Source of the DNA: Bacteroidota bacterium | GTDB lineage: Bacteria > Bacteroidota > Bacteroidia > Bacteroidales > UBA932 | Length of the DNA: 45,294 bases | NCBI GenBank assembly: GCA_029567375.1 | Contig: JAKQLB010000369.1 | Coordinates: forward strand, 1 to 45,294 | Direction: 5' to 3' | In this document: one piece after another, positions 3,436-39,482 of the stretch | How positions within the stretch are numbered: the stretch's first letter is position 1 | Layout of the letters: each line of letters opens with the position of its first letter | The notes under the pieces: generated by a model | What the model saw: only the letters and a program-made list of their open reading frames with translations | Databases searched by the model: none | Told to the model about the DNA's origin: nothing | Program-made: the position numbers and the translations under genes

Positions 3436-3473
3436 TGTTTTATTCATTTGTATCGGATATTCAGACCGTTTTC

Positions 3474-6109: not shown

Positions 6110-6113
6110 GGTT

Positions 6114-6680
6114 TTATTTGATGTCTTTTAATCCGTTATTTGATTCTTTATATTTTTTTCCACATTTGGGACAAACTAAATTGTCAGGCAGACGTTCTCC
6201 ACATTCACATACCCAGCCAATCTGCTTGGCAGGTACTCCTGCCATAAGTGCATGGTCTTTGACATCTTTGGTGACTACCGCTCCGGCAGCTATCAATGCA
6301 CACCGCCCTACAGTGTGTCCGCAGACGATGGTTGCATTTGCTCCAATTGAGGCTCCCCATTTAACCAGAGTTTTATCATAAACCCCGTGAACAGGATAGT
6401 GGGCACGTGGTATGGTCACGTTGGTAAATACGCATGAAGGGCCACAGAAAACATTGTCCTCCAATTCCACACCCTCATATACCGAAACGTTGTTCTGTAT
6501 TCGCACTCCGTTTCCAATCTTTACATTGTTGGCCACATTCACATTTTGTCCGAGCGAACAATTTTCACCCAGTATGGCATTTTTTTGAATATGACAGAAA
6601 TGCCAAATTTTTGTACCCTTTCCTATTGTTACATTTTCATCGATGTAACTGCTTTCGTGAACAAAATAATCCTTTTCCAC
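6114..6680 (-). CDS. wbpD: WbpD-type N-acetyltransferase with C-terminal zinc ribbon
   Basis: A 188-residue left-handed beta-helix acyltransferase: hexapeptide repeats run from about residue 12 to 150, ending in the typical MAGVPAKQIGW turn. The family acetylates the C3 amino group of UDP-GlcNAc(3NH2)A using acetyl-CoA, the last step to UDP-GlcNAc(3NAc)A. After the helix there is a short tail with Cys158, Cys160, Cys170 and Cys173 (CxC...CxxC), which looks like a small zinc ribbon. The start is GTG at 6678-6680, overlapping the TAG of wbpB by one base, so translation is probably coupled. No in-frame ATG nearby would keep the conserved N-terminus. Confidence 0.9.
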   Translation of the reverse strand: MEKDYFVHESSYIDENVTIGKGTKIWHFCHIQKNAILGENCSLGQNVNVANNVKIGNGVRIQNNVSVYEGVELEDNVFCGPSCVFTNVTIPRAHYPVHGVYDKTLVKWGASIGANATIVCGHTVGRCALIAAGAVVTKDVKDHALMAGVPAKQIGWVCECGERLPDNLVCPKCGKKYKESNNGLKDIK

Positions 6681-7636
6681 TATTGTTTTTCGTCAATTAA
6701 TTCCTGTGCCTTCTCCAGTACCTTCACCACTTCATACCCTGACCGTCCATCGGCAATTTCAATTTTTTTATCCAGATTCTCCACAAAATATTTTAACTCC
6801 TCGGTAAGAGGTTGCTTTTTTTCATATGGAATAATCTCGGTCGGATTTTCAACCTTAATCGGAATCCCCTGTTCAAACTCGATATGTTTGTTGTAGAATT
6901 TGATCTCTTTTTCAGGCGATGAATCTTCGAAAGAAATCATACCTCTGCTTCCAATTACCACCATGCGGTGTTCTTTGAAGGGATGAAGCCAGGAGACAAA
7001 AATATGAGCGTGAATATTATTTGGGTAGGTCAGTTGCGTTATAGTGTAGTCATACACATTTTTCTGCAAAAACTTTGCTCCTTTAGATTCGATGCACTGA
7101 GAGACCTCTCCGACAAAATAGTTCAAAACTGAAATGTCGTGCGGCGCAAAAGACCAAAACACGTTTTCCTCAGTTCGTACCGTACCCAAATTCAATCGAT
7201 TGGAGTAGATATAATAGAGTTCTCCAATTTTTCCGTTATCTATCAACTCTTTAATTTTGACAATTGCAGGATGAAAGAGCAGGACGTGACCCACCATAAG
7301 TTGCGCACCTTTCGCTTTGGCTAACTCTACCAATTCGAGCGAAGTTTCGGAAGAGAGCGTCATAGGTTTTTCCACCAATACGCTTTTTCCGTGTTCCAAC
7401 AACAGTTTGGCGATATCGTAATGAAGCGGCGCAGGTGCAGCTATTGTAAATCCGTCAAAATTCTCTTTAAGAGCCATTTCTACATCCTGAAAACCTTTTA
7501 CCGGATATTGCTCCAAAAGTTCTCGCAATCTTTTAGGATTGGCCTCGACGATGCCACCCAAATTTCCCATTTCAAAGAGTGTACGGATGTGATTCTCTCC
7601 CCATCTGCCACCACCTATTACGCAAATGTTCTTCAT
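6680..7636 (-). CDS. wbpB: WbpB-type UDP-sugar 3-dehydrogenase (Gfo/Idh/MocA family)
   Basis: A 318-residue oxidoreductase. The Rossmann motif GGGRWGENH is at residues 8-16, the family EKP motif at 89-91, and the FAPHD catalytic-site His166 and Asp167 follow. WbpB enzymes oxidise C3 of UDP-GlcNAcA to a ketone, working with the aminotransferase WbpE. The enzyme is unusual because its NAD is recycled during turnover with 2-oxoglutarate. The adjacency of wbpD, wbpE and wbpA makes this assignment much stronger than the broad family alone. A hairpin with a T-run lies in its leader (7656-7684), so its expression may be separated from that of wbpA. Confidence 0.9.
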   Translation of the reverse strand: MKNICVIGGGRWGENHIRTLFEMGNLGGIVEANPKRLRELLEQYPVKGFQDVEMALKENFDGFTIAAPAPLHYDIAKLLLEHGKSVLVEKPMTLSSETSLELVELAKAKGAQLMVGHVLLFHPAIVKIKELIDNGKIGELYYIYSNRLNLGTVRTEENVFWSFAPHDISVLNYFVGEVSQCIESKGAKFLQKNVYDYTITQLTYPNNIHAHIFVSWLHPFKEHRMVVIGSRGMISFEDSSPEKEIKFYNKHIEFEQGIPIKVENPTEIIPYEKKQPLTEELKYFVENLDKKIEIADGRSGYEVVKVLEKAQELIDEKQ

Positions 7637-7655
7637 AGTTATGAATCATTACATT

Positions 7656-7684
7656 AATTAAAAAGACGTGGTCGCCACGTCTTT
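7656..7684 (-). terminator. Intrinsic terminator or attenuator between wbpA and wbpB
   Basis: On the minus strand a perfect 10-bp stem (AAAGACGTGG paired with CCACGTCTTT) with a three-base CGA loop is followed directly by more Ts (TTTTTAATT). It lies just after the wbpA stop and 20-50 bases before the wbpB start. This is the form of a Rho-independent terminator for wbpA transcripts. Because the downstream wbp genes appear to belong to the same pathway, partial read-through or a second promoter is likely. Confidence 0.75.
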
Positions 7685-7690
7685 ACAATA

Positions 7691-9004
7691 TTACAATAGC
7701 TCTATGTTTTGCCTATTTACAACACTTTTCATTGCGTTTTTGGTGTCAAAAATAAACTTTGAGTGTTGTTGTACAAAATCGTAATCGACATTAGTGTGAG
7801 CAGCTGTTACCATCACCAAATCGGCAGATTCAAGGAGTTCTTTGGTCAATTTCTTTTCACCTTGATTTTTTTCTCCTTTATATTTATATTCGAAAATATA
7901 GGGGTCATAATATTTTATATTCGCTCCCTTTCCTTTCAGAATATCAATTACCACCAAAGCGGGACTTTCACGATAATCGTCAATATCTTGCTTATAGGCC
8001 ACACCGAGAACCAGTATAATTGAACCCTTCAACGATTTTTCATATCTATTTAGAATATTAGCGGCTCTCTCCATGCAATATTCAGGCATACGGTCATTTA
8101 TCATCATAGATGATTCAATCATGGAGGTGTGGAATCCAAACTCCCGAGCCTTCCAGGAGAGGTAATAAGGGTCAAGAGGAATGCAGTGACCACCCAATCC
8201 CGGACCGGGATAGAAAGCCTGAAATCCATAGGGTTTTGTCTTTGCTGCATCAATTACCTCCCAAAGATTGATATTCATTTTATTACAAAGAATCGCCAAC
8301 TCGTTTACCAATCCAATATTGATATTACGGTAGGTGTTTTCGAGAATTTTCTCCATTTCGGCAATCGCTGGACTCGAAACCGTATGTACATCACTTTCAA
8401 GGACCGCTCTGTACATGGCAGCAATTACTTCAAGTGCATCTTCGCCGATTGCTCCAACCACTTTAGGTGTATTTTTGGTCTTATAAATCAGGTTACCCGG
8501 GTCAACTCGTTCAGGTGAAAAACCGAGGTAAAAATCTTCTCCGCACTTTAGTCCTGAACCTTCTTCGAGAAGTGGTTTTATCAACTCTTCAGTAGTTCCG
8601 GGATATGTGGTAGACTCCAAAACCACCATTGTTCCCCTCTTCATATATTTGGCAATGGACTTAGTGGAAGATTTCACATAACTTATGTCGGGTTGCTGAT
8701 AAATATCAAGAGGAGTAGGCACACAGATAGCTACAAAGTCGACATCTTTGATAAAGCTGAAGTCTGAAGTAGCCGACAGCAATCCTTTTGAAACGATCTC
8801 TTTCAAATCTTCATCCACTACGTCTCCTATGTAGTTATGTCCGGCATTTACCATATCAACCTTTTGACTTTGAATATCGAAACCGATGGTTTTAAATCCT
8901 GCTTTTGCCTTTTCCACTGCCAGAGGCAGTCCGACATAACCGAGTCCGACAACTCCGACTATGATCTCTTTGTTTGAAATTTTGTTTAATAATTCTTGTT
9001 TCAT
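7691..9004 (-). CDS. wbpA: WbpA-type UDP-GlcNAc 6-dehydrogenase
   Basis: A nucleotide-sugar dehydrogenase of about 437 residues. GLGYVG is at 20-25 and the catalytic Cys274 lies in GPGLGGHCIPLDPYY. The central dimerisation segment and the C-terminal UDP-binding domain (GVAYKQDIDDYRESPA) are present. WbpA oxidises the C6 hydroxyl of UDP-GlcNAc in two steps to the uronic acid. WecC and UDP-glucose dehydrogenases share the fold; the neighbouring wbpB, wbpD and wbpE favour WbpA. I use the ATG at 9002-9004, since the extra 16 codons of the longer frame are unlike the family and overlap the probable leader. It is the first gene of the locus in this window. Confidence 0.92.
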   Translation of the reverse strand: MKQELLNKISNKEIIVGVVGLGYVGLPLAVEKAKAGFKTIGFDIQSQKVDMVNAGHNYIGDVVDEDLKEIVSKGLLSATSDFSFIKDVDFVAICVPTPLDIYQQPDISYVKSSTKSIAKYMKRGTMVVLESTTYPGTTEELIKPLLEEGSGLKCGEDFYLGFSPERVDPGNLIYKTKNTPKVVGAIGEDALEVIAAMYRAVLESDVHTVSSPAIAEMEKILENTYRNINIGLVNELAILCNKMNINLWEVIDAAKTKPYGFQAFYPGPGLGGHCIPLDPYYLSWKAREFGFHTSMIESSMMINDRMPEYCMERAANILNRYEKSLKGSIILVLGVAYKQDIDDYRESPALVVIDILKGKGANIKYYDPYIFEYKYKGEKNQGEKKLTKELLESADLVMVTAAHTNVDYDFVQQHSKFIFDTKNAMKSVVNRQNIELL

Positions 9005-9056
9005 GATAGATATTATAAATAATTTAGTTTCCCTCGTAAAAAATATTTGCACACAA

Positions 9057-9087
9057 CATAAATAATATCCCGCGAATATACAACAAA
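9057..9087 (-). promoter_or_regulatory. Candidate Bacteroidota promoter for wbpA
   Basis: On the minus strand TTTG (9084-9087) is followed after 19 bases by TATTTATG (9057-9064), one mismatch from the -7 consensus TAnnTTTG. The spacing fits the -33/-7 promoters of Bacteroides. It would give a leader of roughly 45 bases before the ATG at 9004. Confidence 0.4.
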
Positions 9088-9175
9088 TCTTTTAACCAAA
9101 TGTCTAAATGTTGAAAAAAATATAACGTTGAGGGGCTATTTTATAATTTTAACAAAATATACAGGCAGTTGGAAT

Positions 9176-9604
9176 TTACAAAAACCAACGTCTTTTCTTT
9201 TTAGATTCAGGCATTGCTGAGCCCGATGCCATTGTTTGCAGTGCATCGCCTCCATCGAGCGCAACCTTTACCGCATTATAGATAACTCCCCAGTCCGGTA
9301 ATCCTCCCAGGTTCTTGTCATCTATAAACATATCAGCGTCGAGCTTACGATGATATTCACCCGGCTGCAACTCCTCCACTTCTCCCCTGTAGTTTTCGTT
9401 TTCTGCATAGAAGTATAGTCCTCTCTTAGCGCAGTAGTCTATAGCCTCTTGCAAGAGGTCTCCGGTACGAACAGTCCATAAGATAAGCCTGTGCCCATCT
9501 TTCTGCATCTGCAGTAGGGTATCAATGGCAAAAGGAATTGGTTTACCTATTGCGGGATAAGCATGCTCTACAATGGTGCCGTCAAAGTCAATAGCTATAA
9601 TCAT
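9176..9604 (-). CDS. Small HAD-superfamily hydrolase
   Basis: A compact 142-residue HAD protein. The nucleophile motif DFDGT is at residues 6-10, LWTVRTG (motif II region) near 42-48, and the motif IV pair in ADMFIDDKN near 90-98. There is no cap domain of any size, so it may act on an accessible phosphomonoester or phosphoprotein. The C-terminus is a short basic tail (SKKKRRWFL). It overlaps the preceding alpha/beta hydrolase gene by four bases (ATGA), so the two are co-translated; no functional link is evident. The true substrate is unknown. Confidence 0.8.
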   Translation of the reverse strand: MIIAIDFDGTIVEHAYPAIGKPIPFAIDTLLQMQKDGHRLILWTVRTGDLLQEAIDYCAKRGLYFYAENENYRGEVEELQPGEYHRKLDADMFIDDKNLGGLPDWGVIYNAVKVALDGGDALQTMASGSAMPESKKKRRWFL

Positions 9605-10965
9605 TTCTTTATGGATTTAACAAATTCGAGCATCAGCGCCAGCACCTCTTCGGAAATAGTCTCCTCAATGGTGGCATATTCGGTTGGGAGGCCTGTGGTA
9701 GCATGCTGGAAGAGATGATTTAGCCCCTCGAGCTCCACGATCTGCATATTATCTCTGCCTGTCTCTTCAGCTATTTGACGGTAAACAGGAATATTTTGAT
9801 AGGATACCACCTGTTTATCAAGCGTGCCGTTGAGAATCAAGGCCGGTACGGTAACTTCGCGGATAGCCGGGGCCGGATCATATTTGAGGAAATAAAACAT
9901 CCAGGGAGAGCTGTATTGGTCAATCATAGGAACTGCGACATCATCAGGCATTCCCACAGACGCAAGATAACTCAGTGCTTCTTTGCGGAAATTCTCATCC
10001 GGAGCATCATATTTCTCCACTATGGCAAAAAATTGCTCTGAAATCACTCTGTTTTGCTCGATGGCCTGCTCAGGCATACCCATTCCTCGATATACTTCAA
10101 CCTGCTGGAGTTTGAGAACCTCTGCACCTGTCACTGCCGGACCTCCGAGTGAAATAAGAAAAGCAACGTCAGGCCGCCTTTGAGCCACCATGAAGTTTAT
10201 AAAACCCCCTTCGCTATGGCCGGTAATGCCGCAAAGTGAAGGAATTACCTCTTTCCTGGAGAGCAGATAATCAAAAGCCGCCTCCGCATCATAGGAAAAG
10301 TCAAAGGAGGTACCGTCAGGATTGCCGGGCTCGGAAGCTCCTACTCCGCGATCATCAAATCTTAGGACAGCCACTCCGTTGCGGGTAAGATAATCTGCAA
10401 TCACGGCAAAAGGCTTATGATCCATCAATTCCTCGTCACGATTCTGGGGACCGCTTCCGGTGACCAGGATCATTGCCGGAAAAGGACCCTCTCCTTCGGG
10501 AATAGTCAAAGTGCCGGCAAGCGTAAAATCCTCCCTGGTATTTTTGAAAAATACCTCTTCAGACTTGTAAGGGAATGGAGGTTGGGGTTCCTGGGGACGC
10601 TTGGGTTTTGCCGCTTTTTCGCCTTTGATGAGAGTAAGAGGAAGCGACATGCCCATCTGTGTAAATTCGCCCACTATATTATTAAGCACAAGTGTACCTT
10701 CGTATGATGCGCTTATTGCTTCTATCGCAATTGTCAATTTCATCATTTCAAATGAAATAGATGTAACGGGAATGTCGTATGCTCCCTGAGCAGGTACATC
10801 CATCGTGGCGGATAGGGTACCGTTGGTTTCCTTAATGTCAAAACAGAGTTCAAGCTCGGTCGGGCCTAAACTGAGGGTACCTTTCCAGTAACCTATAATA
10901 TTCTGAGCAATGCTGACATTTGCCAGCATGCAGAATAGTGCAGAAATCAATAAAAGCCTTTTCAT
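9601..10965 (-). CDS. Secreted alpha/beta hydrolase with N-terminal beta domain
   Basis: A 454-residue protein with a signal peptide (MKRLLLISAL to about residue 20, cleavage near IAQ). Residues 22-115 form a lipocalin-like beta domain beginning IIGYWKGTL, followed by a Pro/Lys-rich linker. The serine-hydrolase domain spans about 135-454: an oxyanion loop GSGPQNRDEE at 170-179, nucleophile Ser251 in GHSEGG, Asp383 in NGTLDKQV and His417 in EGLNHLF. This architecture is common in Bacteroidota and usually annotated as an S9/S33-like hydrolase or esterase of the periplasm. Substrate unknown. Its likely -7 box is at 11022-11029, and its leader contains part of a heptamer repeat region. Confidence 0.85.
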   Translation of the reverse strand: MKRLLLISALFCMLANVSIAQNIIGYWKGTLSLGPTELELCFDIKETNGTLSATMDVPAQGAYDIPVTSISFEMMKLTIAIEAISASYEGTLVLNNIVGEFTQMGMSLPLTLIKGEKAAKPKRPQEPQPPFPYKSEEVFFKNTREDFTLAGTLTIPEGEGPFPAMILVTGSGPQNRDEELMDHKPFAVIADYLTRNGVAVLRFDDRGVGASEPGNPDGTSFDFSYDAEAAFDYLLSRKEVIPSLCGITGHSEGGFINFMVAQRRPDVAFLISLGGPAVTGAEVLKLQQVEVYRGMGMPEQAIEQNRVISEQFFAIVEKYDAPDENFRKEALSYLASVGMPDDVAVPMIDQYSSPWMFYFLKYDPAPAIREVTVPALILNGTLDKQVVSYQNIPVYRQIAEETGRDNMQIVELEGLNHLFQHATTGLPTEYATIEETISEEVLALMLEFVKSIKK

Positions 10966-11021
10966 GATATGTATTTATAATTTTTTATCTAAATATTCTT
11001 CGCTACCAACTATTCAAACTC

Positions 11022-11029
11022 CAAAGCTA
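11022..11029 (-). promoter_or_regulatory. Bacteroidota -7 element for alpha/beta hydrolase operon
   Basis: On the minus strand the sequence is TAGCTTTG, an exact TAnnTTTG, 56 bases before the ATG at 10965. No well-spaced TTTG -33 element is visible. Confidence 0.45.
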
Positions 11030-11034
11030 TAAAA

Positions 11035-11080
11035 AATAACCCAAAACTCGAAACTCAATAACTAGCCCGTAACACTACAC
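11035..11080 (-). repeat. Degenerate heptamer repeat at the 3' end of the amylase gene
   Basis: Roughly seven-base units such as AAAACTC, GAAACTC, AATAACT and AACACTA run up to and into the amylase stop codon (TAG, 11075-11077). The words AACTC, CCCGTAAC and CACTACAC recur in the arrays near 40940 and 42250. The periodicity here is weaker than in the other arrays. Confidence 0.5.
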
Positions 11081-12562
11081 CAAATTCAGTCGCATATAAT
11101 CATTCGCTCCTACTTTGAGACGCACCCTCTCCCCTGCTTTTTTAATACCGAAAAAGGAGTAAGCTTCGGAAGGAATATTTACTTCCATTTCCACGGGACG
11201 GCCATCAAAATTGGCCACCACAAGCATACAGGCATCCTCATATCCGCGCATGAAAGCAAACTGACGATTACCGTTGAAGCGCTCGGAATCGGGATTGGCA
11301 TACATAAGATCGAATGTCTCACCATGGGCGAAAATAGCATCTGAGGTAGCTATCTTCAACAGACGGCTATACTCCTTATAAACCACCAATTCATCAACGG
11401 TCAGACGGTCGAGCAGCCATCGTCTTATCGAAGGTACATTGCAATAATCAAAAATAGAAGTGCGACCATCCAATCCGCTAAATCCCTCCTGCTCCATCCC
11501 TCGCTCACCGAACTCCTGCCCGAAATAGAGCATGAAAGGAGCCTTGTTGAAAAGCAGAGAGACCGCCAGAGCAGGGAATGCCGCCCTACCCGAACCTGCA
11601 AAGAAATCCGATGCAATTCGCTGCTCATCGTGATTTTCCAGAAAGTTGAGCATCCTGGGTTGAAGGTCGCCGAGAAACTGCCATTCTCCGGTAAGTAGTC
11701 GGGTACTTACCCCCTCGCACATAATATTTCTCAAGGTGTCGTAGAAGCCCGATTTGTCATACAAAAGGTCAAAGCCGCCTATCTCATAATAGCGTCTGTA
11801 ATTCTCCTTACCGTAAACCTCTGCAATGAAAAAGGTATTAGGATAGATATATTTTATCTCATTGAAAGCCCAACCGAAAAATTCCGCCGGCACCATTTCC
11901 ACCATGTCGCAACGGAAACCGTCCACCCCTTTTGCAGCCCAGAATTTGAGCACGTCGAGCATTTTTACCCAGGTATCATGGTTGTCGTAGTTGAGCTTAA
12001 CCGTATCGTACCAGTCATTGATAGAGGGAGATGTGTGAAATACATCGTTGCCGGTAGCCTTGGCGGGGTTTTCGACATAATCGGAATTGAGAGACTCCGG
12101 CAGGATGAGCGGCCCGTCGAGAATATGAAAATTGTCCCTAGTAAAATAGGTGTCATACTGACGAAACACATGGTTAGGCACAAAATCGATAATAACCTTC
12201 ATGCCTGCCTTGTGTGTTCTGCGGACAAGTGCTTCAAATTCCGCCATCCGGTTGTCATGGTTGTTTGCGAGTGCGGGACTTACATCGAAATAGTTGCGGA
12301 TGGCATAAGGAGAACCCGCTTCGCCTTTAACTATGGAGGGGTTGCAATCTTTTATGCCGTGAAAATGGGTTTTAGTGGCGTGTGAGATGACTCCGGTGTA
12401 CCAGATGGCGCTGACCGAGAGCTTTTTGATCTTTTTGAGAACTTCATCGGTTATGTCGTCAAACTTGCCGCTGCCGTTTAAGTTATAAGAGCCTCCGGAT
12501 ACGCTCTTGCGTTTGCCGAAAGCTCTCAATAACAGTTGGTATATGACCACCTTCCCTTCCAC
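11075..12562 (-). CDS. GH13 alpha-amylase family enzyme, cytoplasmic
   Basis: A 495-residue GH13 enzyme with the four conserved regions: DFVPNH (126-131), GFRCDMVE (nucleophile Asp219), FIAEVYGK (acid/base Glu248) and FLENHDEQ (Asp312). A small C-terminal beta domain follows (about 410-495). There is no signal peptide, so it acts on internal alpha-glucan or imported maltodextrin. The subfamily cannot be fixed by eye. The start is GTG (12560-12562), two bases after the stop of the phosphofructokinase gene, so the pair forms an operon linking alpha-glucan breakdown with glycolysis. The last codons lie inside a heptamer repeat. Confidence 0.88.
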   Translation of the reverse strand: MEGKVVIYQLLLRAFGKRKSVSGGSYNLNGSGKFDDITDEVLKKIKKLSVSAIWYTGVISHATKTHFHGIKDCNPSIVKGEAGSPYAIRNYFDVSPALANNHDNRMAEFEALVRRTHKAGMKVIIDFVPNHVFRQYDTYFTRDNFHILDGPLILPESLNSDYVENPAKATGNDVFHTSPSINDWYDTVKLNYDNHDTWVKMLDVLKFWAAKGVDGFRCDMVEMVPAEFFGWAFNEIKYIYPNTFFIAEVYGKENYRRYYEIGGFDLLYDKSGFYDTLRNIMCEGVSTRLLTGEWQFLGDLQPRMLNFLENHDEQRIASDFFAGSGRAAFPALAVSLLFNKAPFMLYFGQEFGERGMEQEGFSGLDGRTSIFDYCNVPSIRRWLLDRLTVDELVVYKEYSRLLKIATSDAIFAHGETFDLMYANPDSERFNGNRQFAFMRGYEDACMLVVANFDGRPVEMEVNIPSEAYSFFGIKKAGERVRLKVGANDYMRLNLV

Positions 12563-31423: not shown

Positions 31424-31431
31424 TAACTTTG
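31424..31431 (+). promoter_or_regulatory. -7 element for the hdr-cysteate synthase operon
   Basis: TAACTTTG is an exact TAnnTTTG, 21 bases before the ATG at 31453. TTTG at 31406-31409 lies 14 bases upstream, shorter than usual. Another exact box (TATCTTTG, 31341-31348) lies further up in the same 144-base gap. I see no terminator after carB. Confidence 0.5.
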
Positions 31432-31452: not shown

Positions 31453-32148
31453 ATGGGCAAACTATACGAACAATTAATCCGGGATTACCGCATAAAAGAG
31501 GGGCTGAAAGCCTGTATAAACTGCGGCACCTGTACGGCCATCTGCCCTGCTGCCGAATTCTACAAATACAACCCAAAAAACATAGTCAACATCGTTCAGA
31601 GCCAGGATGACGCTCAGATTGAAGAACTGCTAAAAGGCGAACAGATCTGGTACTGCGGCGAATGTATGTCGTGTGTGACACGGTGTCCGAGGCGCAACGC
31701 TCCGGGACTTGTAGTCATGGCGTTAAGATCGCTCTCCATTGATTTGGGCTATTTTGTAGAAAGCGAAAAGGGACGACAGATGCTCCCTCTCACACGCCGT
31801 ATGCAGAGCAATATCCTAAACTACGGCTACTGTGTCTATCCCCGCACATTTCTCTACAAAGATCACCCCGAATATGGCCTCACCGGTAAGTGGGTGATTG
31901 AAAATATGGAAGATGTATATGAACGTCTCGGTGCAAATCTCGATGGGAAAGGCCCCGGAATTTTGAGAAAAATTCCCGACGAATCTCTCGCCGAGCTCAA
32001 GGCAATATTTGATGAAACCGGTGCTACACGCCGTATGGAAATCATCGAAGAGGCCTCCAAACTTAAAGCAAAAGAGATGGGTATCCCCTACGACGAATAT
32101 GAAAGAAAGGCATTTGAGGATACCGAAAAGGACCATCTCAACCATTAA
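31453..32148 (+). CDS. HdrC-like 4Fe-4S protein
   Basis: A 231-residue soluble protein with two classic [4Fe-4S] motifs: Cys21, 24, 27, 31 (CINCGTCTAICP) and Cys68, 71, 74, 78 (CGECMSCVTRCP). The first matches the HdrC subunit of heterodisulfide reductase, where the clusters pass electrons between the flavin subunit HdrA and the catalytic HdrB. The C-terminal 130 residues carry no cysteine motif and are mostly helical; they extend it beyond a minimal HdrC. It is the first gene of the operon, with an exact -7 box upstream, and hdrB follows after 18 bases. Confidence 0.88.
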   Translation: MGKLYEQLIRDYRIKEGLKACINCGTCTAICPAAEFYKYNPKNIVNIVQSQDDAQIEELLKGEQIWYCGECMSCVTRCPRRNAPGLVVMALRSLSIDLGYFVESEKGRQMLPLTRRMQSNILNYGYCVYPRTFLYKDHPEYGLTGKWVIENMEDVYERLGANLDGKGPGILRKIPDESLAELKAIFDETGATRRMEIIEEASKLKAKEMGIPYDEYERKAFEDTEKDHLNH

Positions 32149-32166
32149 TTTGAAAACAGCATCAAA

Positions 32167-33237
32167 ATGATATTTCAGGGAAAACAGAAAATATGGTCCG
32201 ACTATCAGAAAGAGATTCCTGATGACCACTGGTTTTATGTGAGAAGCTGCATTCGCCAAGGGTTTTTCCCGGGTTCGGAAGTGGCATTTCTCGACATATG
32301 TCGTAACAAACTTGGCAAAGATTTCTTCGAAACAGAGCACCACACCACTTGCGGAGGAATTGCATACCATGCCGAGGCTCTTCCGCAGGAGACCATGATG
32401 ACCATTATCGCCCGCCAATTTGCTCTGATGGGTGAACACGGCTACAAGAACTACGTATGTTCCTGCATAACCTCATTCGGTCTCTATACCGAAGTGTTGG
32501 AGGACTGGAGGACCTTTCCGGATCTTGAGGATAAAATTCGGGAACATCTCTGGAAGTCATGCAGACGCGAATTGACAAAACCGGAATATCTGGCCCACGC
32601 CAGCGACATTATTTATAAATTCCGCAATGAGATAGCAGCCAAGGCAAAACACCGTCTGGTCAACAAGTTTACAGGTGAACCGCTAAGAGTTGTAGAGCAT
32701 ATCGGATGTCATTATTCCAAGATGTTTCCCTCCAAAGGCGTAGGCGGAGCGGAATATCCCTATGTTCTTGCCGGCATGATTGATTCCTGGGGAGGAGAAG
32801 TGATAGATTATCCCGAACGCAGGCATTGCTGCGGATTCGGTTTCAGACAATATCTGGTTAAGGCCAACCGCGGCTACTCGATGTCCAACACCCACAAAAA
32901 GTTTGAATCGATGGAGCCCTACAAGCCTGACATGATCATAACGAACTGTCCGGGATGCCCCTATTTCATGGACAGATGGCAATATGTGATAGCTGAACAA
33001 ACAGGCAAGACTTATGGTGAAAACGGATATGGCATTCCCGTATTCACCTATGAGGAGGTTGCCGGTCTGGTGCTGGGGTATGACCCCTGGGATCTTGGAC
33101 TCCAGATGCATCAGGTAGCGGTTGAACCCCTGCTGGATAAAATGGGCGTTAAATACAACAAAAAAGATAAATACAAAGGTAGCGGAGGCAAAATCCTCAA
33201 GATCCCGGAATTTCCCATGAACATCAAGTGTTGTTGA
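32167..33237 (+). CDS. HdrB-like CCG-domain protein
   Basis: A 356-residue protein with two cysteine-rich CCG domains. The second is complete: Cys181, Cys221-222, Cys261 and Cys264 (CX39CCX38CX2C), the pattern that holds non-cubane iron-sulfur clusters in HdrB. The first is degenerate: Cys28, a single Cys62 where CC is expected (TTCGG), and Cys98/Cys100. In methanogens HdrB reduces the CoM-S-S-CoB disulfide with both cluster sites; one altered site suggests a different substrate or a single cluster. It is flanked by hdrC and hdrA-like genes with gaps of 16-18 bases. Confidence 0.87.
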   Translation: MIFQGKQKIWSDYQKEIPDDHWFYVRSCIRQGFFPGSEVAFLDICRNKLGKDFFETEHHTTCGGIAYHAEALPQETMMTIIARQFALMGEHGYKNYVCSCITSFGLYTEVLEDWRTFPDLEDKIREHLWKSCRRELTKPEYLAHASDIIYKFRNEIAAKAKHRLVNKFTGEPLRVVEHIGCHYSKMFPSKGVGGAEYPYVLAGMIDSWGGEVIDYPERRHCCGFGFRQYLVKANRGYSMSNTHKKFESMEPYKPDMIITNCPGCPYFMDRWQYVIAEQTGKTYGENGYGIPVFTYEEVAGLVLGYDPWDLGLQMHQVAVEPLLDKMGVKYNKKDKYKGSGGKILKIPEFPMNIKCC

Positions 33238-33253
33238 TATAATATCTGACTAA

Positions 33254-34267
33254 ATGAAACGAAATGTACTTATAATTGGCGGAGGTCCTGCCGGTATGGA
33301 AGCCGCACGCAGAATACGCGATTACGGCCACACCCCGATTCTTATCGAAAAAGAGTCCCGTCTCGGAGGTCATCTGGCAAAGTGGCACAAACTCTTTCCC
33401 GAAGGTGAGTCAACGGAGGAACTTCTGACTTCCCTGACAGCCGATATGGAAGGAATCAACTACTTTACAGATACCAATATCGTCTCTATCAACAAACTTA
33501 AGAATCTCTATGTGGCTATCTTTTCCAATGGCATTTCAGTACAGGCGGATGCCATTCTTTTTGCAACGGGGTTTTCCATGTTCCCTGCTGAAAAAAAGGA
33601 AGAATATGGCTACGGCATATATAACCATGTTATTACAAATGCTGACCTTGAGCATTTTTTCAATACCGGAAAAGACCCAAGGATTAAAGAACCAAAGGTT
33701 ATAGGATTTGTTCACTGCGTCGGCTCAAGAGATGAAAAAGCCGGCAATCGCCAGTGCTCTAAAGTGTGCTGCGCCACAGCTCTCAAACAGGCTTGCGAGA
33801 TGAAGGAACTCTATCCGGATGCCACCATCTACTGTTTTTATATGGACTTGAGAATGTTCGGCCGCAAATACGAGGACCTCTATCTGAACGCCCAGCGTAA
33901 ATATGGGATATTATTCGTCCGTGGCAGGGTTTCAGAGGTATCTGAAGATATTGATGGAAGACTTGTCGTAAAGGCGGAAGATACTCTGGTAGGCAAACCT
34001 ATACGTATTACTATGGACCTGCTTGTACTTATGGCCGGTATGTCTCCATGCGTGGAGAACCCTAAAATTGCCTCTATGACCGGAGTACATATCGGAGAAG
34101 ATGGATTTTTCATGCCCAGGGATTTACTTTACCGGAGCGTGGAGAGCCACAGCAAAGGGATCTTTTTTGCCGGTGCCGCCACCGGCCCCAAGACCATTCC
34201 TGAAACTCTCAACGAAGCCAGAGCAGCAGCTATGGCCATTGATCACTATTTCAAACAAAAGGCTTAA
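33254..34267 (+). CDS. Minimal HdrA-like FAD oxidoreductase
   Basis: A 337-residue flavoprotein. The FAD-binding motif GGGPAG is at 9-14, a second ATG-type flavin motif at 104-106, and a C-terminal flavin site reads GIFFAGAATGP. The HdrA-specific cluster motif is present: Cys155 in HCVGSRD and Cys168, Cys172, Cys173 in QCSKVCC. Methanogen HdrA is about twice as long, with N-terminal and C-terminal ferredoxin domains; these are missing here, so electron entry must come from other subunits. The size is closer to QmoA of sulfate reducers. Its TAA overlaps the next ATG by one base. Confidence 0.88.
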   Translation: MKRNVLIIGGGPAGMEAARRIRDYGHTPILIEKESRLGGHLAKWHKLFPEGESTEELLTSLTADMEGINYFTDTNIVSINKLKNLYVAIFSNGISVQADAILFATGFSMFPAEKKEEYGYGIYNHVITNADLEHFFNTGKDPRIKEPKVIGFVHCVGSRDEKAGNRQCSKVCCATALKQACEMKELYPDATIYCFYMDLRMFGRKYEDLYLNAQRKYGILFVRGRVSEVSEDIDGRLVVKAEDTLVGKPIRITMDLLVLMAGMSPCVENPKIASMTGVHIGEDGFFMPRDLLYRSVESHSKGIFFAGAATGPKTIPETLNEARAAAMAIDHYFKQKA

Positions 34268-34593
34268 TGATAGATTTCGGATATAGTCTCACCCCAAGTT
34301 CGACAATTGAAATAGACGATGCTGACATGAGTCTATTTGATGAATTATGCGCAGTAGAACCCGATGCCATTAAGTGTATGTCATGCGGATCTTGCGCTGC
34401 CAGTTGTACCGCGGGCGTTTTTACTGATCTCAATCTGAGAAAGGTGCTGCTCGGCCTTCAGCGCGGGTGCGAAGAAGATGTGCTCCCACAACTCAAATCC
34501 TGTATGCTTTGCGGTAAATGCCATATAGTCTGCCCCAGAGGCATCAACACCCGGCATCTGATTCTTTCAATTTGCAAGATTTACAATATCTGA
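34267..34593 (+). CDS. Second HdrC-like dicluster ferredoxin subunit
   Basis: A small protein of 108 residues with two [4Fe-4S] motifs: Cys37, 40, 43, 47 (CMSCGSCAASC) and Cys79, 82, 85, 89 (CMLCGKCHIVC), followed by the PRGINTRHLI segment typical of HdrC. It is translationally coupled to the HdrA-like gene (TAATG) and lies four bases before the membrane subunit. I infer that it wires the flavin subunit to the HdrE-HdrD fusion. It is the second HdrC of the operon and much shorter than the first. Confidence 0.87.
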   Translation: MIDFGYSLTPSSTIEIDDADMSLFDELCAVEPDAIKCMSCGSCAASCTAGVFTDLNLRKVLLGLQRGCEEDVLPQLKSCMLCGKCHIVCPRGINTRHLILSICKIYNI

Positions 34594-34597
34594 TACT

Positions 34598-36442
34598 ATG
34601 ATGAGGGAAAGATTCATATCGGGTTACGACCATTTTGTACTACCATTCATGGTGGGCATGATATTCGTTCTCCTCTGGTGCATTATCGGAGTTATCAAGA
34701 TTATGGTCCAGCTTGAGCGCAAAGATCGCATCAAAGTTTATAAGTCTTTGGTCAATCCCGTGATAATGGGTAAGAATGTTCGCGACTGGTTTGGAGATTG
34801 TCTGTTCCACGTTAAGCTCTGGAGACGCAATAAGGTGTTGGGATATATGCACTCCAGTATTGCTTTCGGCTGGTTTATGCTCATAGTCATCGGTCATATC
34901 GAGACATTCCTCTATATTCCCGAAAGAGGCGGATTGTTCTATTATCCCATATTTTTCCGCTACTTCATGGCAGTCGAAAGTACAACCCTCAAGGGTTCGC
35001 TACTCTTCTTCCTTATGGACTTTTTCCTGCTTGTGGTTCTCAGCGGTATAATTCTGGCCATTATCAAACGTTTCCGTTCCAAGTTGATGGGAATGCGTAG
35101 AACCACAAAGCTCACTCTCCTGGATCGCGTCGGCCTCTATTCACTCTGGGCAATATTTCCATTGAGGCTGATAGCGGAAGGATTTACCGCAGGTGTAGGT
35201 GGTGGAAGTTTCCTCACCGTACCTGTCAATTGGCTCTTTGCCAGTATCCTCAGCAAACCGGAGAACTTCACGATCGCCTGGTGGGCCTACTCGATAGCAC
35301 TGGGCACCTTTATGATAGTGCTGCCATATACCAGATATATGCATATTCCCGCGGAGTTCTTCTTGATTCCTCTCAAAAACGCCGGCATTAAAGTACGCAG
35401 ACCGCGCAAAGGCTACGCTTTGGCAGAACTCTACTCCTGCCCCAGCTGCGGAGTTTGTCTGGATGCCTGCCCTATGAGTGTCGATAAAGCGGGACTCAAG
35501 AATACCACCGTCTATTATATACGTCAGGTCAAAAGAAGAAATCAGCCGCGTGCGCTGGCAATTGCCGATAAGTGTCTGATGTGTGGCAAGTGTTCTGTTC
35601 TCTGCCCCATCAATATCTCAGCCATCGATCTCCGTTTGGCGCTACGCAAGCAACAGCCCTACAATATAGAACACGACTTCAGCTACCTCGACAAAATCCC
35701 TAATGAAGCATTGACATCAGCAATCTCAGTCGGCGGAGAAAAAGTACTCTACTATTCCGGCTGTATGAGCTCTTTGACACCGATGGTGTCTCAATCAGTA
35801 CAGAAGGTGCTCACAACGGCGGGGATAGATTTCACCCTAATGGATGAGCAAGGAACTATATGTTGCGGAAGACCGCTGTTGCTCTCAGGCCGCACGGAAG
35901 AGGCAAAGGCACTTATAGAGAAGAATGAACAGATAATTAAGGAAAGCGGTGCTCCTATACTGCTGGTATCTTGTGCTATCTGTTACAGAATATTCAAAGA
36001 GGATTATGATCTGAATGGAGTTCAGGTGATGCACTATACCGAGTATTTTGAACAACTGGCTGCTGAAGGAGTCATAAAGTTAAGAAAACAGGAGAAGCTT
36101 AAATATGTATATCATGATCCCTGCGAACTAGGTCGTGGCTGCGGCATCTATGAGGCTCCCCGCAAGGCTCTGGCCAGGGTTGCCAACCTCGTACCGGCTG
36201 CAAAAGAACGTAAGGAAAGTATATGCTGCGGAGGCTCTCTTGGCAGTCTGACGCTAACTCATGAAGAGAGAGGACGCATCACGGAGAATTCCATCCGCAA
36301 CCTTACCGCCAACTCTCCCGATAGGATTGTGACTGCATGTCCGCTCTGTATGAAGACCTTCAGCAGACAATCAGAGATTAAAGTTGTAGACTTTGCCCAG
36401 GTAATTGCCGAGAATTTGGTCGAAAAAGAAAAAGAAGAATAA
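34598..36442 (+). CDS. HdrE-HdrD-like fusion, membrane heme/iron-sulfur subunit
   Basis: A 614-residue fusion. Residues 1-250 hold about five membrane helices (near 14-36, 83-105, 133-157, 178-198, 227-246) resembling HdrE/NarI cytochrome b, with His85, His100 and His249 as possible heme ligands. A dicluster ferredoxin region follows (Cys281, 284, 287, 291; Cys326, 329, 332, 336). Two full CCG domains then match HdrD: Cys389, 422-423, 459, 462 and Cys509, 543-544, 581, 584. In methanosarcinas HdrE and HdrD are separate and reduce heterodisulfide with methanophenazine; here menaquinone is the likely partner. It sits 12 bases before the cysteate-synthase gene. Confidence 0.88.
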   Translation: MMRERFISGYDHFVLPFMVGMIFVLLWCIIGVIKIMVQLERKDRIKVYKSLVNPVIMGKNVRDWFGDCLFHVKLWRRNKVLGYMHSSIAFGWFMLIVIGHIETFLYIPERGGLFYYPIFFRYFMAVESTTLKGSLLFFLMDFFLLVVLSGIILAIIKRFRSKLMGMRRTTKLTLLDRVGLYSLWAIFPLRLIAEGFTAGVGGGSFLTVPVNWLFASILSKPENFTIAWWAYSIALGTFMIVLPYTRYMHIPAEFFLIPLKNAGIKVRRPRKGYALAELYSCPSCGVCLDACPMSVDKAGLKNTTVYYIRQVKRRNQPRALAIADKCLMCGKCSVLCPINISAIDLRLALRKQQPYNIEHDFSYLDKIPNEALTSAISVGGEKVLYYSGCMSSLTPMVSQSVQKVLTTAGIDFTLMDEQGTICCGRPLLLSGRTEEAKALIEKNEQIIKESGAPILLVSCAICYRIFKEDYDLNGVQVMHYTEYFEQLAAEGVIKLRKQEKLKYVYHDPCELGRGCGIYEAPRKALARVANLVPAAKERKESICCGGSLGSLTLTHEERGRITENSIRNLTANSPDRIVTACPLCMKTFSRQSEIKVVDFAQVIAENLVEKEKEE

Positions 36443-36454
36443 AATAAAAACGCT

Positions 36455-37741
36455 ATGAAGAATTTCAAACCCACAAAGTACGTACTTGAAAATTTGGCTA
36501 CCGGCCGCAGATTTGAAGACACAGGTTGGCTTCTGGAAGACCCACAAGGGGAAGGACCCTCACTCATCAGAGCCATTTACGAAAAGAAACAGATAGAATT
36601 TGGAAGTCAGGAAGAGGGCATCTACCGTTTTGCCGACTGGCTTCCCATCAACCACACACTCAAAGGTTCTGCTGCAACACAAACCTACAAAAGTAAGGCC
36701 CTTGCTTCGGAACTGGGTCTACCCAATCTCTATATTTCTTTTTCCGGCTACTGGCCGGAGAAGGGTGCATTTATGACCACCGGTTCATTCAAGGAGACAG
36801 AGGCCTATTCTGTATGTGGCAGGCTCTCTCACAATAAGAAAGGGGTATTGGTAGTGGCCTCGGCAGGTAACACGGCCAGATCATTTGCAAAAGTATGCTC
36901 CGAAAACAACATTCCGCTACTATTAAGTGTTCCTGAAGACAATATTGATGCTTTGTGGTTTGAAAAACCTATCAACGACTGCGTTAAGCTTATCTCCTCA
37001 CCCAAAGGCAGCGACTATTACGACGCCATAGCTCTTGCCGACAAAGTCTGCACATCCGAGATGTTTTTTGCCGAAGGCGGAGCAAAGAATGTAGCCCGCA
37101 GGGATGGTATGGGTACGACCGTGCTTTCTGCGGCTGAGGTAATCGGACGTATTCCCGACTGCTATTTCCAATCCATAGGAAGTGGCACAGGCGCTATTGC
37201 CGCCTGGGAGGCCAATTTACGTCTGATAGAAGACGGCCGTTTCGGCAACCATAAGATGAAACTTTTCCCCTCGCAAAATATTCCCTTCACACCCATGTAT
37301 GATGCGTGGAAAGCCGGCAGCAAAACCCTCCTGCCGATGAATGACGAAGAGGCGCGCATTAAGGCAACTGCTATCGATGCCAAAGTGCTTTCCAATAGAA
37401 GACCTCCTTACGCTGTGCGTGGAGGCCTCTATGATGCAATGTGCGATGCTGGAGGAGATGTTGAACTGGCGGATAACAACGATATCAAAGAGATGCAGGC
37501 ACTCTTCCTGCGTACCGAGGGGATCGATATTCATCCGGCATCTGCCGTAGCCACAAAAGGTATGATCAATGCCTTTAATGCAGGTAAAATGCCGAAAGAT
37601 GCGATTACTATGCTAAATATTACGGGCGGAGGAGAAGAGCGTTTCAAACGCGACCATAAGATTGTTTACCTCAAGCCCTCCCTCATCGCGCTGGCTTCAG
37701 ACGAAGGAATAATCACCAGAGTTGAAAATCTGTTTAAGTAA
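36455..37741 (+). CDS. Cysteate synthase homologue (PLP, threonine-synthase fold)
   Basis: A 428-residue fold-type II PLP enzyme. Lys113 in TTGSFKETE is the Schiff-base residue, SAGNT (136-140) and GSGTG (242-246) bind substrate and cofactor phosphate, and GYWPEKGAF, EGGAKNVARRDGMGT and NRRPPYAVRGGLYDA agree with the cysteate synthase family as I recall it from Methanosarcina. That enzyme makes L-cysteate from O-phosphoserine and sulfite for coenzyme M. The N-terminal cysteine-rich strand of the archaeal protein is absent. In Bacteroidota cysteate feeds sulfonolipids such as capnine. It is the last gene of the hdr operon. A plain threonine synthase is less likely given these motifs. Confidence 0.87.
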   Translation: MKNFKPTKYVLENLATGRRFEDTGWLLEDPQGEGPSLIRAIYEKKQIEFGSQEEGIYRFADWLPINHTLKGSAATQTYKSKALASELGLPNLYISFSGYWPEKGAFMTTGSFKETEAYSVCGRLSHNKKGVLVVASAGNTARSFAKVCSENNIPLLLSVPEDNIDALWFEKPINDCVKLISSPKGSDYYDAIALADKVCTSEMFFAEGGAKNVARRDGMGTTVLSAAEVIGRIPDCYFQSIGSGTGAIAAWEANLRLIEDGRFGNHKMKLFPSQNIPFTPMYDAWKAGSKTLLPMNDEEARIKATAIDAKVLSNRRPPYAVRGGLYDAMCDAGGDVELADNNDIKEMQALFLRTEGIDIHPASAVATKGMINAFNAGKMPKDAITMLNITGGGEERFKRDHKIVYLKPSLIALASDEGIITRVENLFK

Positions 37742-37745
37742 TCTC

Positions 37746-39482
37746 TTAAAGAGTAGATTTCTTTTTCTGTTCGCTTATCATCACTATCTCGGTAGCTTTG
37801 GCCAGAGCAGGGATGATGTGTGAGAATACATGATCTCTGCCTATTTCATGAAGTAAACCGAACTTTTCTATGGAGTCATAGACATTGTCCTGGACGCCGG
37901 AAAGAATAAGCTTTATGCCGGCCTTTTTTGAACGTTTGTAGAGGCTGCGAAGGTTATTGATTCCGGTCGAATCGATGAAAGGCACCTTGCGCATGCGTAT
38001 GATACGAACTTTGAGATGACCTTTTTTGGTAGAGCGGTCAACCTCGTCGATCTTACTGGCAAGTCCGAAAAAGAAAGGTCCGTCGATTTCAAAAATTTCC
38101 ACACCATCAGGAACGGATAGTTGTTCGGTACTCTCCAGTTGGGCTCTTTCTTCATTCTCGGTTGCAGCCAGATAGTCACTCTCGAGAACCGTGATTGAGG
38201 AGGTTTCGGAAACACGCTTAACAAAGAGAATGATAGCCATCAAGAGCCCCACCTCAATTGCAACTGTCAAATCGACCAATACGGTCAGGAAAAATGTAAT
38301 CAGCAACACTATCACATCTGCTCGGTCTCCTTTGAGCAAATACTTGAATGTCCTCCATTCACTCATATTGTAGGCCACCATGACCAGGATTGCTGCAAGA
38401 CAAGAGAGCGGAATATAGATGGCATAGGGCATGAGGAAAAGGAAAATCAGCAGAAGCACGAGGGAGTGAATAATACCAGCGACAGGAGTCTTTCCACCGT
38501 TGTTGATATTGGTCATTGTACGTGCAAGAGCTCCGGTTGCCGGAATACCGCCGAAAAGAGGGGTAATGATGTTTGTTATACCCTGTCCTATGAGCTCAGT
38601 ATTGGAATTGTGACGCTTGCCGGTGGCACCGTCCGCAACCATTGCTGCAAGAAGCGACTCTATTGCACATAGAAAGGCAATGGTAAATGCAGGCTGGAAG
38701 AGTTTGACAGCTGTATCAAGAGTAATTTTGGGAGCTACGGGCTCGGGAATGGCTATTCCGCCCGCAAGTTCGGGAAATTTGCTGCCAATTGTGGCAAATT
38801 CGAGTCCGGCAAAACGGGAAAGTATCAGCGAAATGAATGTTCCCACAATAATGGCAATCAGTGAACCGGGCACTTTCTTAGTAACTCGAGGCCAGAAAAT
38901 GATTATCGCTAAACAGAATAGTGACATCAGGGTTTCTGCGATGGAGATCGATCCCAGATTGCTGAAATAGCAACCCCACTTGGCCAGGAAACTTGAAGGT
39001 ACTTCCGCTATTGTCAGTCCGAAGAAATCTTTAATCTGGGTGGAGAATATAGTTACGGCAATACCCGAAGTAAAACCTATTACTATGGGATAAGGAATAA
39101 ACTTGATTAACGTACCGAGTTTGAAAACGCCCATTAGCACCAGCATGATACCTGCTAATATGGTGGATATTATCAACCCCTGAATGCCGAAGTCACCAAC
39201 AATACCGGCTACTATTACGATAAAAGCTCCGGTAGGACCTCCTATTAAAAAATTGGAACCTCCCAAAAGTGATGTGAGGAAGCCCGCGACGACGGCAGTA
39301 ATCAGACCCTGCTGAGGGGTAACTCCCGAAGCAATACCAAAAGCAATTGCTAGCGGTAAAGCCACTATACCTACAATTACACCTGCAATGAAGTCCTGTA
39401 TAAAGGTCTCTTTATTGTAATTACCTTTCTTAAAAAGTTCGAAAAATTTGGGCCTGAAGAGCTGTGACAGTCTGGTTTTCAT
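37746..39482 (-). CDS. SulP/SLC26 family anion transporter with STAS domain
   Basis: A 578-residue permease. The sulfate-transporter domain (about 25-420) has ten or more hydrophobic helices, beginning DFIAGVIVGIVALPLAIAFGIASG. A cytoplasmic STAS domain covers about 455-570 (IFEIDGPFFFGLASKIDEV and the PFIDSTGINNL loop). The family moves sulfate, bicarbonate, fumarate or other anions; the substrate cannot be told from sequence. It converges with the cysteate-synthase gene with only four bases between stops. An exact -7 box lies 43 bases upstream of its ATG, facing the atoE promoter. Confidence 0.9.
   Translation of the reverse strand: MKTRLSQLFRPKFFELFKKGNYNKETFIQDFIAGVIVGIVALPLAIAFGIASGVTPQQGLITAVVAGFLTSLLGGSNFLIGGPTGAFIVIVAGIVGDFGIQGLIISTILAGIMLVLMGVFKLGTLIKFIPYPIVIGFTSGIAVTIFSTQIKDFFGLTIAEVPSSFLAKWGCYFSNLGSISIAETLMSLFCLAIIIFWPRVTKKVPGSLIAIIVGTFISLILSRFAGLEFATIGSKFPELAGGIAIPEPVAPKITLDTAVKLFQPAFTIAFLCAIESLLAAMVADGATGKRHNSNTELIGQGITNIITPLFGGIPATGALARTMTNINNGGKTPVAGIIHSLVLLLIFLFLMPYAIYIPLSCLAAILVMVAYNMSEWRTFKYLLKGDRADVIVLLITFFLTVLVDLTVAIEVGLLMAIILFVKRVSETSSITVLESDYLAATENEERAQLESTEQLSVPDGVEIFEIDGPFFFGLASKIDEVDRSTKKGHLKVRIIRMRKVPFIDSTGINNLRSLYKRSKKAGIKLILSGVQDNVYDSIEKFGLLHEIGRDHVFSHIIPALAKATEIVMISEQKKKSTL

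Follow-up and report, generated by a model that had tools for sequence, protein, structure and literature searches.

Sulfonolipid-linked Hdr genes in the window

The window, a stretch of 45,294 nucleotides from a Bacteroidales genome (family UBA932; contig JAKQLB010000369.1 of assembly GCA_029567375.1), carries a six-gene operon that encodes five heterodisulfide reductase (Hdr)-like proteins and a cysteate synthase (CS). The Hdr cluster is very probably linked to the synthesis of sulfonolipids, which are bioactive lipids of Bacteroidota. Somewhat better than an even chance (roughly 0.55) is given to the reading that its products constitute a menaquinone-linked complex, similar to the Hdr-like system of sulfur oxidizers (sHdr), that provides the sulfite needed in cysteate and sulfonolipid synthesis where the sulfate route is missing. 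The source assembly comprises 3.38 Mb in 400 contigs, of which the window is contig 305, and is 89% complete.

As a preliminary description of this DNA had stated, the six open reading frames (ORFs) are all on the + strand and tightly spaced, the intervals being 18, 16, −1, 4–7, and 12 bases. They encode an HdrC1-like protein with two [4Fe-4S] motifs (231 aa; 31453..32148), an HdrB-like protein (356 aa; 32167..33237), an HdrA-like flavoprotein of the short form without ferredoxin domains (337 aa; 33254..34267), an HdrC2-like protein with two [4Fe-4S] motifs (108 aa; 34267..34593), a membrane HdrE-HdrD (EtfD-like) fusion, hereafter ED (614 aa; 34598 or 34601..36442), and CS, a pyridoxal 5′-phosphate (PLP) enzyme (428 aa; 36455..37741). 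NCBIfam and Pfam gave the families of all six, ED showing CCG and ferredoxin domains behind an N-terminal part and CS a 461-bit family match; HdrA was further assigned by a match to PDB 6tjr, and ED by AlphaFold2 and Foldseek.

Judged by its sequence, the sixth gene is a cysteate synthase gene. Its product scored 461.2 bits to TIGR03844 (cut-off 324.9) versus at most 53 bits to threonine synthase models, and 581 bits to PDB 9k3c ('Cysteate synthase') over query residues 1–427 versus 46 bits to the best threonine synthase chain. The motifs FKETEA, SAGNT, and GSGTG were invariant in a 20-row CS alignment, and K113 is probably the PLP lysine. The source genome had one TIGR03844-family match at E 0.001, and CS over the cut-off was found in 26 of 61 relatives, the source genome counted in. 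According to part of the review PMC10191378, an archaeal-type cysteate synthase serves sulfonolipid synthesis in Alistipes and Odoribacter.

A distant PLP clade, here termed CS-like, scored 107–134 bits to TIGR03844 in a sample of 198 genomes of the order and thus fell under the cut-off; the L117 protein, the only one compared with the whole of NCBIfam, was also under the threonine synthase cut-offs (L and G numbers denote loci and genomes, respectively). CS-like genes lie at L117:9104-10327 and L118:9377-10600 and also in L141–L144, L161–L171, and L176–L178. When CS and CS-like rows were placed in one tree with other PLP enzymes, CS stood apart from CS-like, and nine CS-like rows, including all five beside Hdr genes, formed one group (100/100); the outgroup was three rows used in place of threonine synthases, on very long branches, and its joins were not decided. 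This clade is a candidate second type of cysteate synthase.

Cysteate-C-fatty acyltransferase (CFAT; SulA or CapB) makes 3-ketocapnine from cysteate. Five genomes have no CS but only a CS-like protein (about 115 bits); in the two of these that were read, at L117 and L118, the CS-like gene stands beside genes for a PLP acyltransferase and a short-chain dehydrogenase/reductase (SDR). The acyltransferase scored more than 560 bits to PDB 7u7h and 28eh ('Cysteate-C-fatty acyltransferase'), and because this far exceeds its 216 bits to serine palmitoyltransferase, it was identified as CFAT. The 7u7h record is named 7-keto-8-aminopelargonate-synthetase-like enzyme, and we take it to be Alistipes SulA. 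A cysteate acyltransferase, for which the preliminary description had advised a search elsewhere in the genome, was found in the source genome as a CFAT (G000:C349) that is 72% identical to that of L117; this CFAT and that of L094 matched 28eh and 7u7h at more than 540 bits. In the source-genome CFAT, the motif QIYAKSLP places a lysine at the position of SulA Lys281, a residue whose role is described in part of PMC9304779. Lysine was present there in six of seven CFATs checked, and the L144 CFAT lacks the SLP anchor.

The link to sulfonolipids is carried by arrays in which Hdr genes share a strand with this pathway. In L094 (uncultured Bacteroidales RUG152), genes for a VOC protein (2696-3772), CFAT (3846-5114), SDR (5114-5911), HdrC1 (5875-6603 from the first ATG, the homologous part starting at 5908), HdrB (6609-7679), HdrA (7681-8694), HdrC2 (8691-9008), ED (9001-10806), and CS (10857-12140) are all on one strand. 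Nine genes identical in kind and order were found in L079 (Candidatus Colimorpha). Other arrays read CFAT (cut by the contig end)-CSlike-SDR-VOC-C1-B-A-C2-ED (L052), CFAT-CSlike-C1-B-A-C2-ED (L142), CFAT-CSlike-C1-B-A-C2-ED-SDR-VOC (L141), and C1-B-A-C2-ED-CFAT (L172), and in L143 and L144 CFAT-CSlike-SDR stands beside a rearranged Hdr set, with an intervening VOC gene seen in L143. Hdr genes and CFAT thus occur together in four families of the order sample (f27, f41, f81, and f108) as well as in L094, L079, and L052. In L094 and L079, the SDR belongs to the adh_short family and is a putative ketocapnine reductase. These genes resemble the sulfonolipid pathway of Alistipes, Odoribacter, Capnocytophaga, and Chryseobacterium in having cysteate synthase, CFAT/SulA/CapB, and an SDR-type reductase (CapC/KCR), but differ from the described pathway in that Hdr genes lie inside the operon. 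The preliminary description had tied the complex to a sulfonate or an unknown thiol or disulfide; with CFAT and SDR co-located with hdr, the sulfonate link was borne out and can be named as one to sulfonolipid.

Clusters of both the Hdr type and the cysH type repeatedly have, next to CFAT, the gene for the VOC/glyoxalase-type protein (about 357 aa; L079:152-1225, L052:2917-4092, L117:11597-12673, and L143:8169-9239; also L161 and L163–L166).

Conservation of the Hdr cluster

Locus counts refer to the best 80 of 112 confirmed stretches from a scan of genome contigs for ED. Except for L108 ('uncultured bacterium'), every record title names Bacteroidales, Bacteroidia, or a Candidatus genus presumed to belong to Bacteroidales (79/80). 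The five Hdr-like genes were complete and in identical order in 65 loci, and 13 of the remaining 15 are interrupted by a contig end, so this arrangement is conserved beyond chance. In these samples ED was confined to the order: it was found in 65 of the 198 genomes of the order sample, and in a phylum sample of 247 genomes, the source genome alone matched.

CS was present in 49 of the 80 loci and at most 300 bases from ED in 45, so that CS-hdr adjacency, which the preliminary description had proposed to look for in other Bacteroidota, extends well beyond this genome. Of the CS-free loci, 25 extend 1.5 kb or more downstream of ED and 6 end sooner. That the CS-free loci form a separate system was rejected: of 16 genomes searched (there being 31 such loci), nine have CS elsewhere, five have only a distant relative (CS-like), and two have none; the genome of L094, searched along with them, has CS adjacent. 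Among the neighbors of unlinked CS genes, no constant pathway partner was seen.

CFAT and sulfate reduction genes across the order

In the order sample, CFAT (threshold E ≤ 1e-90) was found in 141 genomes, cysD in 133, cysH in 127, CS over the cut-off in 51, and CS-like in 34. ED occurred in 62/141 CFAT-positive versus 3/57 other genomes (p = 1.5e-8); conversely, CFAT occurred in 62/65 ED-positive versus 79/133 ED-negative genomes. Taking one genome per family, CFAT was found in 36/37 ED-positive versus 53/83 ED-negative genomes (p = 3.3e-5), and such a repeat was the only correction for phylogeny applied to the p-values, a weakness that belongs with those gathered below. The three ED-positive genomes without CFAT are G209 and G217 (less than 85% complete) and G057 (99%).

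Among CFAT-positive genomes with CS or CS-like, cysH was missing in 16/30 with ED versus 4/44 without (p = 3.9e-5), and with one genome per family in 11/18 versus 4/28 (p = 0.0015). Nineteen genomes, including the source genome, have CFAT and ED and no cysH, and none of them matched cysD (0/19); sulfate adenylyltransferase (sat) was tried as an alternative source and was likewise found in 0/19. The 19 genomes should need sulfite, yet show none of cysD, cysH, and sat. Five of these 19, G078, G134, G161, G238, and G094, are 99–100% complete, and their negatives matter because the source genome is less complete.

CFAT and CS-like clusters point the same way. Of the 34 order genomes with CS-like, 13 have it no more than 15 kb from CFAT; four of these clusters hold ED (G094, G134, G161, and G238), six hold cysH (G109, G115, G138, G157, G198, and G220), none holds both, and three hold neither. 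The clusters of G115, G220, and G157 also hold cysD and an adjoining ORF read as cysN from its first residues. This placement used the best CFAT match per genome and only cysH matches over the cut-off, and 12 genomes with weaker cysH were counted as cysH-positive but left unplaced.

The best-surviving alternative, which we nevertheless regard as unlikely, is that the complex is a general menaquinone-linked module for an unrelated substrate and shares neighborhood or regulation with the pathway because both are membrane functions. It would fit the finding that only 5/62 CFAT-ED and 2/22 CS-ED pairs lie within 15 kb of each other, as well as the varied other neighbors in 16 regions (L145–L160). 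However, the excess of CFAT in ED-positive genomes, the arrays from several families that put Hdr between pathway genes, and the cysH that stands in place of Hdr in sister clusters all argue against it.

Hdr-like subunits and a proposed sulfite-forming route

The products are called Hdr-like because their scores are far under the equivalog cut-offs of the methanogen models (NF041778–NF041780 and NF040770): HdrC1 reached 85 of 350 bits, HdrB 134 of 450, and HdrA 259 of 1100 and 207 of 1400. The families of the preliminary description were thus broadly upheld, whereas methanogen-type Hdr identity was not, and the fold of its HdrE-HdrD fusion proved to be EtfD-like. Residue conservation was counted over aligned rows without deduplication. 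HdrC1 retained C21, C24, C27, C31, C68, C71, C74, and C78 in 88/88 rows; HdrB retained each cysteine of its canonical CCG site (C181, C221, C222, C261, and C264) and of a first site reduced to C28, C62, and C100 in 89/89; HdrA retained C155, C168, C172, and C173 in 108/108; and HdrC2 retained eight ferredoxin-type cysteines in 112/112. The best PDB match of HdrA was 6tjr (228 bits, residues 4–328), followed by partial matches to long HdrA proteins. The 6tjr record is named as a flavoprotein domain protein, and we take it to be sHdrA of the sulfur-oxidizing Hyphomicrobium.

ED combines cytochrome-b-like helices, two [4Fe-4S] motifs, and two complete CCG sites; His70, His84, His248, and 18 cysteines (eight ferredoxin and ten CCG) were kept in 113/113 rows. 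Its AlphaFold2 model (mce55daa72100; pLDDT 82.2, pTM 0.77) was closest by Foldseek to PDB 9ojn, the EtfD of Mycobacterium smegmatis (TMq 0.70 over the query length, E 9e-19), whereas the second-best fold reached only 0.31. ED thus has the membrane, ferredoxin, and CCG domains that define the EtfD/EMO type, with a presumed b heme. EtfD is described in a portion of PMC13083937 as an electron wire that runs through Fe-S clusters and b heme to menaquinone. By its modeled fold, ED likely passes electrons to menaquinone, in support of the menaquinone-linked membrane complex envisaged in the preliminary description.

We propose that the products of the five Hdr-like genes form a redox complex, anchored in the membrane, whose dedicated role is the synthesis of capnine-type sulfonolipids. 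HdrB, HdrC1, HdrA, and HdrC2 would oxidize thiol- or carrier-bound sulfur (persulfide, sulfide, or similar) to sulfite, and electrons would exit through the EtfD-like ED, with its two CCG sites, two [4Fe-4S] clusters, and presumed b heme, to menaquinone. Cysteate synthase would then convert sulfite and O-phosphoserine to cysteate, CFAT would join cysteate and an acyl thioester into 3-ketocapnine, and the SDR would reduce the latter. In this way the Hdr complex could replace the sulfate reduction route (cysD/N and cysH), which is unmatched in the source genome. Formation of sulfite is proposed because HdrA best matches 6tjr and ED folds like EtfD; complex formation, the heme, the quinone, and the sulfur donor are all putative, as are the reaction and the direction in which it runs. 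Given that the potentials make the reaction nearly neutral (about −0.12 V for sulfite/sulfide and −0.08 V for menaquinone), trapping of sulfite by cysteate synthase would have to pull it. A remark in the preliminary description that sHdr systems yield sulfite has thereby become the best hypothesis; the nearness of HdrA to 6tjr speaks for it, and the lack of the sHdr core and of the lipoate-binding protein LbpA speaks against it.

As given in parts of PMC11582611 and PMC10332631, the syntenic core of sHdr is shdrC1B1AHC2B2 (type I) or C1B1AHB3 with etfAB (type II) (PMC11582611), the system oxidizes sulfane sulfur and strains having it excrete sulfite (both papers), and LbpA is called essential (PMC10332631). 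The cluster resembles sHdr in its C1-B1-A core order, in having C2 and a CCG-domain partner, in a short HdrA nearest 6tjr, and in the proposed product, sulfite. Unlike sHdr, it reads C1-B-A-C2-ED, with no candidate for sHdrH, B2, B3, or etfAB in the window cluster, L079, or L094 by gene order and assigned ORFs (no profile search for sHdrH or etfAB was made); B2/B3 is replaced by the membrane EtfD-like fusion; no LbpA gene stands in the arrays read; and the setting is biosynthetic, with cysteate synthase and CFAT. Because the syntenic core (sHdrH and B2/B3) and LbpA are lacking, the cluster was not classed as sHdr, although its mode of action would be that of sHdr given an outlet of the EtfD type. 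ED resembles EtfD/EMO proteins (FadF and DgcB) and archaeal HdrDE in that membrane helices, two [4Fe-4S] motifs, and CCG sites are fused. It differs from EtfD/EMO in having an HdrCBAC set as partner, in keeping all ten cysteines of both CCG sites, and in that the cluster holds no electron transfer flavoprotein genes (no unassigned etfAB candidate in the L079 and L094 arrays, none being sought elsewhere).

The complete CCG sites in the HdrD half of ED could also serve a reductase, and parts of PMC13083937 provide an archaeal precedent in Hdr, where noncubane clusters of the CCG type cleave the disulfide. A rhodanese-type enzyme would then remove the sulfane sulfur of thiosulfate and so yield sulfite for cysteate synthase, and the persulfide or disulfide so formed would be reduced by the Hdr complex at the expense of menaquinol, which would account for the same gene arrays and for the missing LbpA. 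We consider this improbable, a little more so than a general module: reduction of thiosulfate or persulfide by menaquinol is uphill, HdrA resembles the sulfur-oxidizing type (if 6tjr is what we take it to be), and the L094 and L079 arrays contain no unassigned same-strand gene and hence no rhodanese gene, none having been sought elsewhere. Less probable still is a complex that, instead of making sulfite, disposes of excess sulfite or persulfide as toxic by-products or recycles a pathway thiol. The association with CS and CFAT is compatible with any sulfite-handling role, but the 19 genomes with CFAT and ED and no cysD, cysH, or sat would be left with no sulfite source that we know of.

Cysteate synthase starts coenzyme M synthesis in Methanosarcinales, where Hdr reduces CoM-S-S-CoB, and the cluster shares subunit types with methanogen HdrABC/HdrDE and a cysteate synthase family with that pathway; a coenzyme M branch with reduction of a CoM-type disulfide is nevertheless very improbable and found no support, since ComE (TIGR03846) was over the cut-off in 0/17 genomes (source genome: none at E 1e-5; two 93-bit matches, in G003 and G154, lie within longer open frames), the Hdr scores are far under the methanogen cut-offs, and CFAT instead accompanies cysteate synthase.

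Several observations weigh against the sulfite-forming reading and its link to the pathway. cysH was present in 45/65 ED-positive genomes, and ED and cysH were unassociated overall (p = 0.35). The association of ED with CS across the order was weak (22/198 genomes with both, p = 0.084), and hdr-CS adjacency was found in only 2 of these 22, both in the window's family. Neither CS nor CS-like was found in 32/65 ED-positive genomes, and no CFAT was nearby in the 16 Hdr regions read from these; an enzyme of the CapA type, another cysteate synthase described in part of PMC10191378, may serve them. ED was absent from 79/141 CFAT-positive genomes. Ten CFAT-positive genomes lack both ED and cysH, four of them having cysD, and therefore another sulfite source must exist. 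In none of the order-sample genomes with both did the best CFAT match lie within 15 kb of true CS (0/47), unlike in L079 and L094, where the two share arrays, and the source-genome CFAT sits on a different contig from the operon. L107 and L109 (isolates Gx485 and Gx481), the two loci without C1 and B despite room for them, keep HdrA-C2-ED, and no CS match was found in G076, the genome of L107. No LbpA was found: eight of nine genomes have one GCV_H protein, probably GcvH, G053 has none, and none lies inside the arrays. Finally, no unassigned gene inside the cluster could be sHdrH in the window, L079, or L094, where no sHdrH profile search was made.

Neighboring genes

A SulP-family permease gene (37746..39482, − strand; TIGR00815, 394 bits versus a cut-off of 380) converges on the operon and is possibly associated with it. 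Ten of the 49 CS-bearing loci, among them L065, L083, L087, L089, L099, and L106, have the permease at most about 1.1 kb from CS. In the window's genome, which has no cysD, cysH, or sat matches, it perhaps carries a substrate other than sulfate for assimilation. The flanks of the Hdr cluster are more variable than its core, the commonest genes being carB (25 loci), carA (23), and the SulP permease (10).

The single promoter of the preliminary description is weak. Upstream of HdrC1, TAACTTTG (31424..31431, + strand) is a possible Bacteroidota −7 box, for which the consensus is TAnnTTTG; TTTG lies only 14 bases upstream of it, the full promoter pattern was not matched there, and the sigma-70-type scan gave 13 matches versus a mean of 13.6 in shuffles, hence no excess. 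No RNA families or tRNAs were found within the window.

Some other genes recur near CS or ED. The unlinked CS of L112–L116 adjoins a gene for a calcium/sodium antiporter, which the L113 scan placed in TIGR00367. Genes for Peptidase C10 and a NAGLU-family protein lie between ED and CS in L037, L038, and L044 (Pfam on L044, the others by similarity) and also near CS in L124–L126 and L130, which include genomes of the window's genus. In six CS-free loci (L041, L042, L043, L046, L047, and L100; families read on L042), ED is followed on the opposite strand by genes for an acyltransferase and for a long-chain acyl-CoA ligase. A bifunctional acyltransferase akin to OlsF and GlsB/GlsA, under the OlsF cut-off, is encoded near ED in L058, L059, L060, L063, L081, L085, and L088 and beside CS at L111:7646-9457; it is a candidate for the N-acylation of capnine or for a step in aminolipid metabolism. 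In G059 (L147:2-2634), a second, longer HdrA-like and HdrC-like pair stands immediately upstream of the Hdr cluster.

Implications for sulfonolipid synthesis

The origin of sulfite for sulfonolipids seems not to have been asked previously: neither sulfite nor heterodisulfide is mentioned in the main text of PMC9304779, which describes SulA, and no open-licence literature was found that joins capnine, biosynthesis, cysteate, and sulfite. Nor did that literature join sulfonolipid, Bacteroidales, and sulfite, or sulfonolipid and heterodisulfide reductase, and where it named cysteate synthase along with heterodisulfide reductase, the titles were all archaeal. Among the open-licence matches listed for at least three of heterodisulfide reductase, Bacteroidetes, menaquinone, and HdrE, no title named such a system.

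Tentatively, and with slightly less confidence than in sulfite formation itself, we suggest that Bacteroidales, presumably anaerobes, run an LbpA-independent, menaquinone-linked Hdr complex for anabolic sulfur oxidation. It would provide sulfite without sulfate or oxygen for the sulfonate head of a membrane lipid, would be interchangeable with sulfate reduction in otherwise similar clusters, and would couple lipid synthesis to the quinone pool. If this is true, a sulfite source would be identified for sulfonolipid genomes without sulfate reduction, an sHdr-like architecture would dispense with the lipoate-binding protein, and Hdr-type sulfur chemistry would extend from energy metabolism to biosynthesis. 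The hdr cluster would then also offer a genomic marker for sulfonolipid producers.

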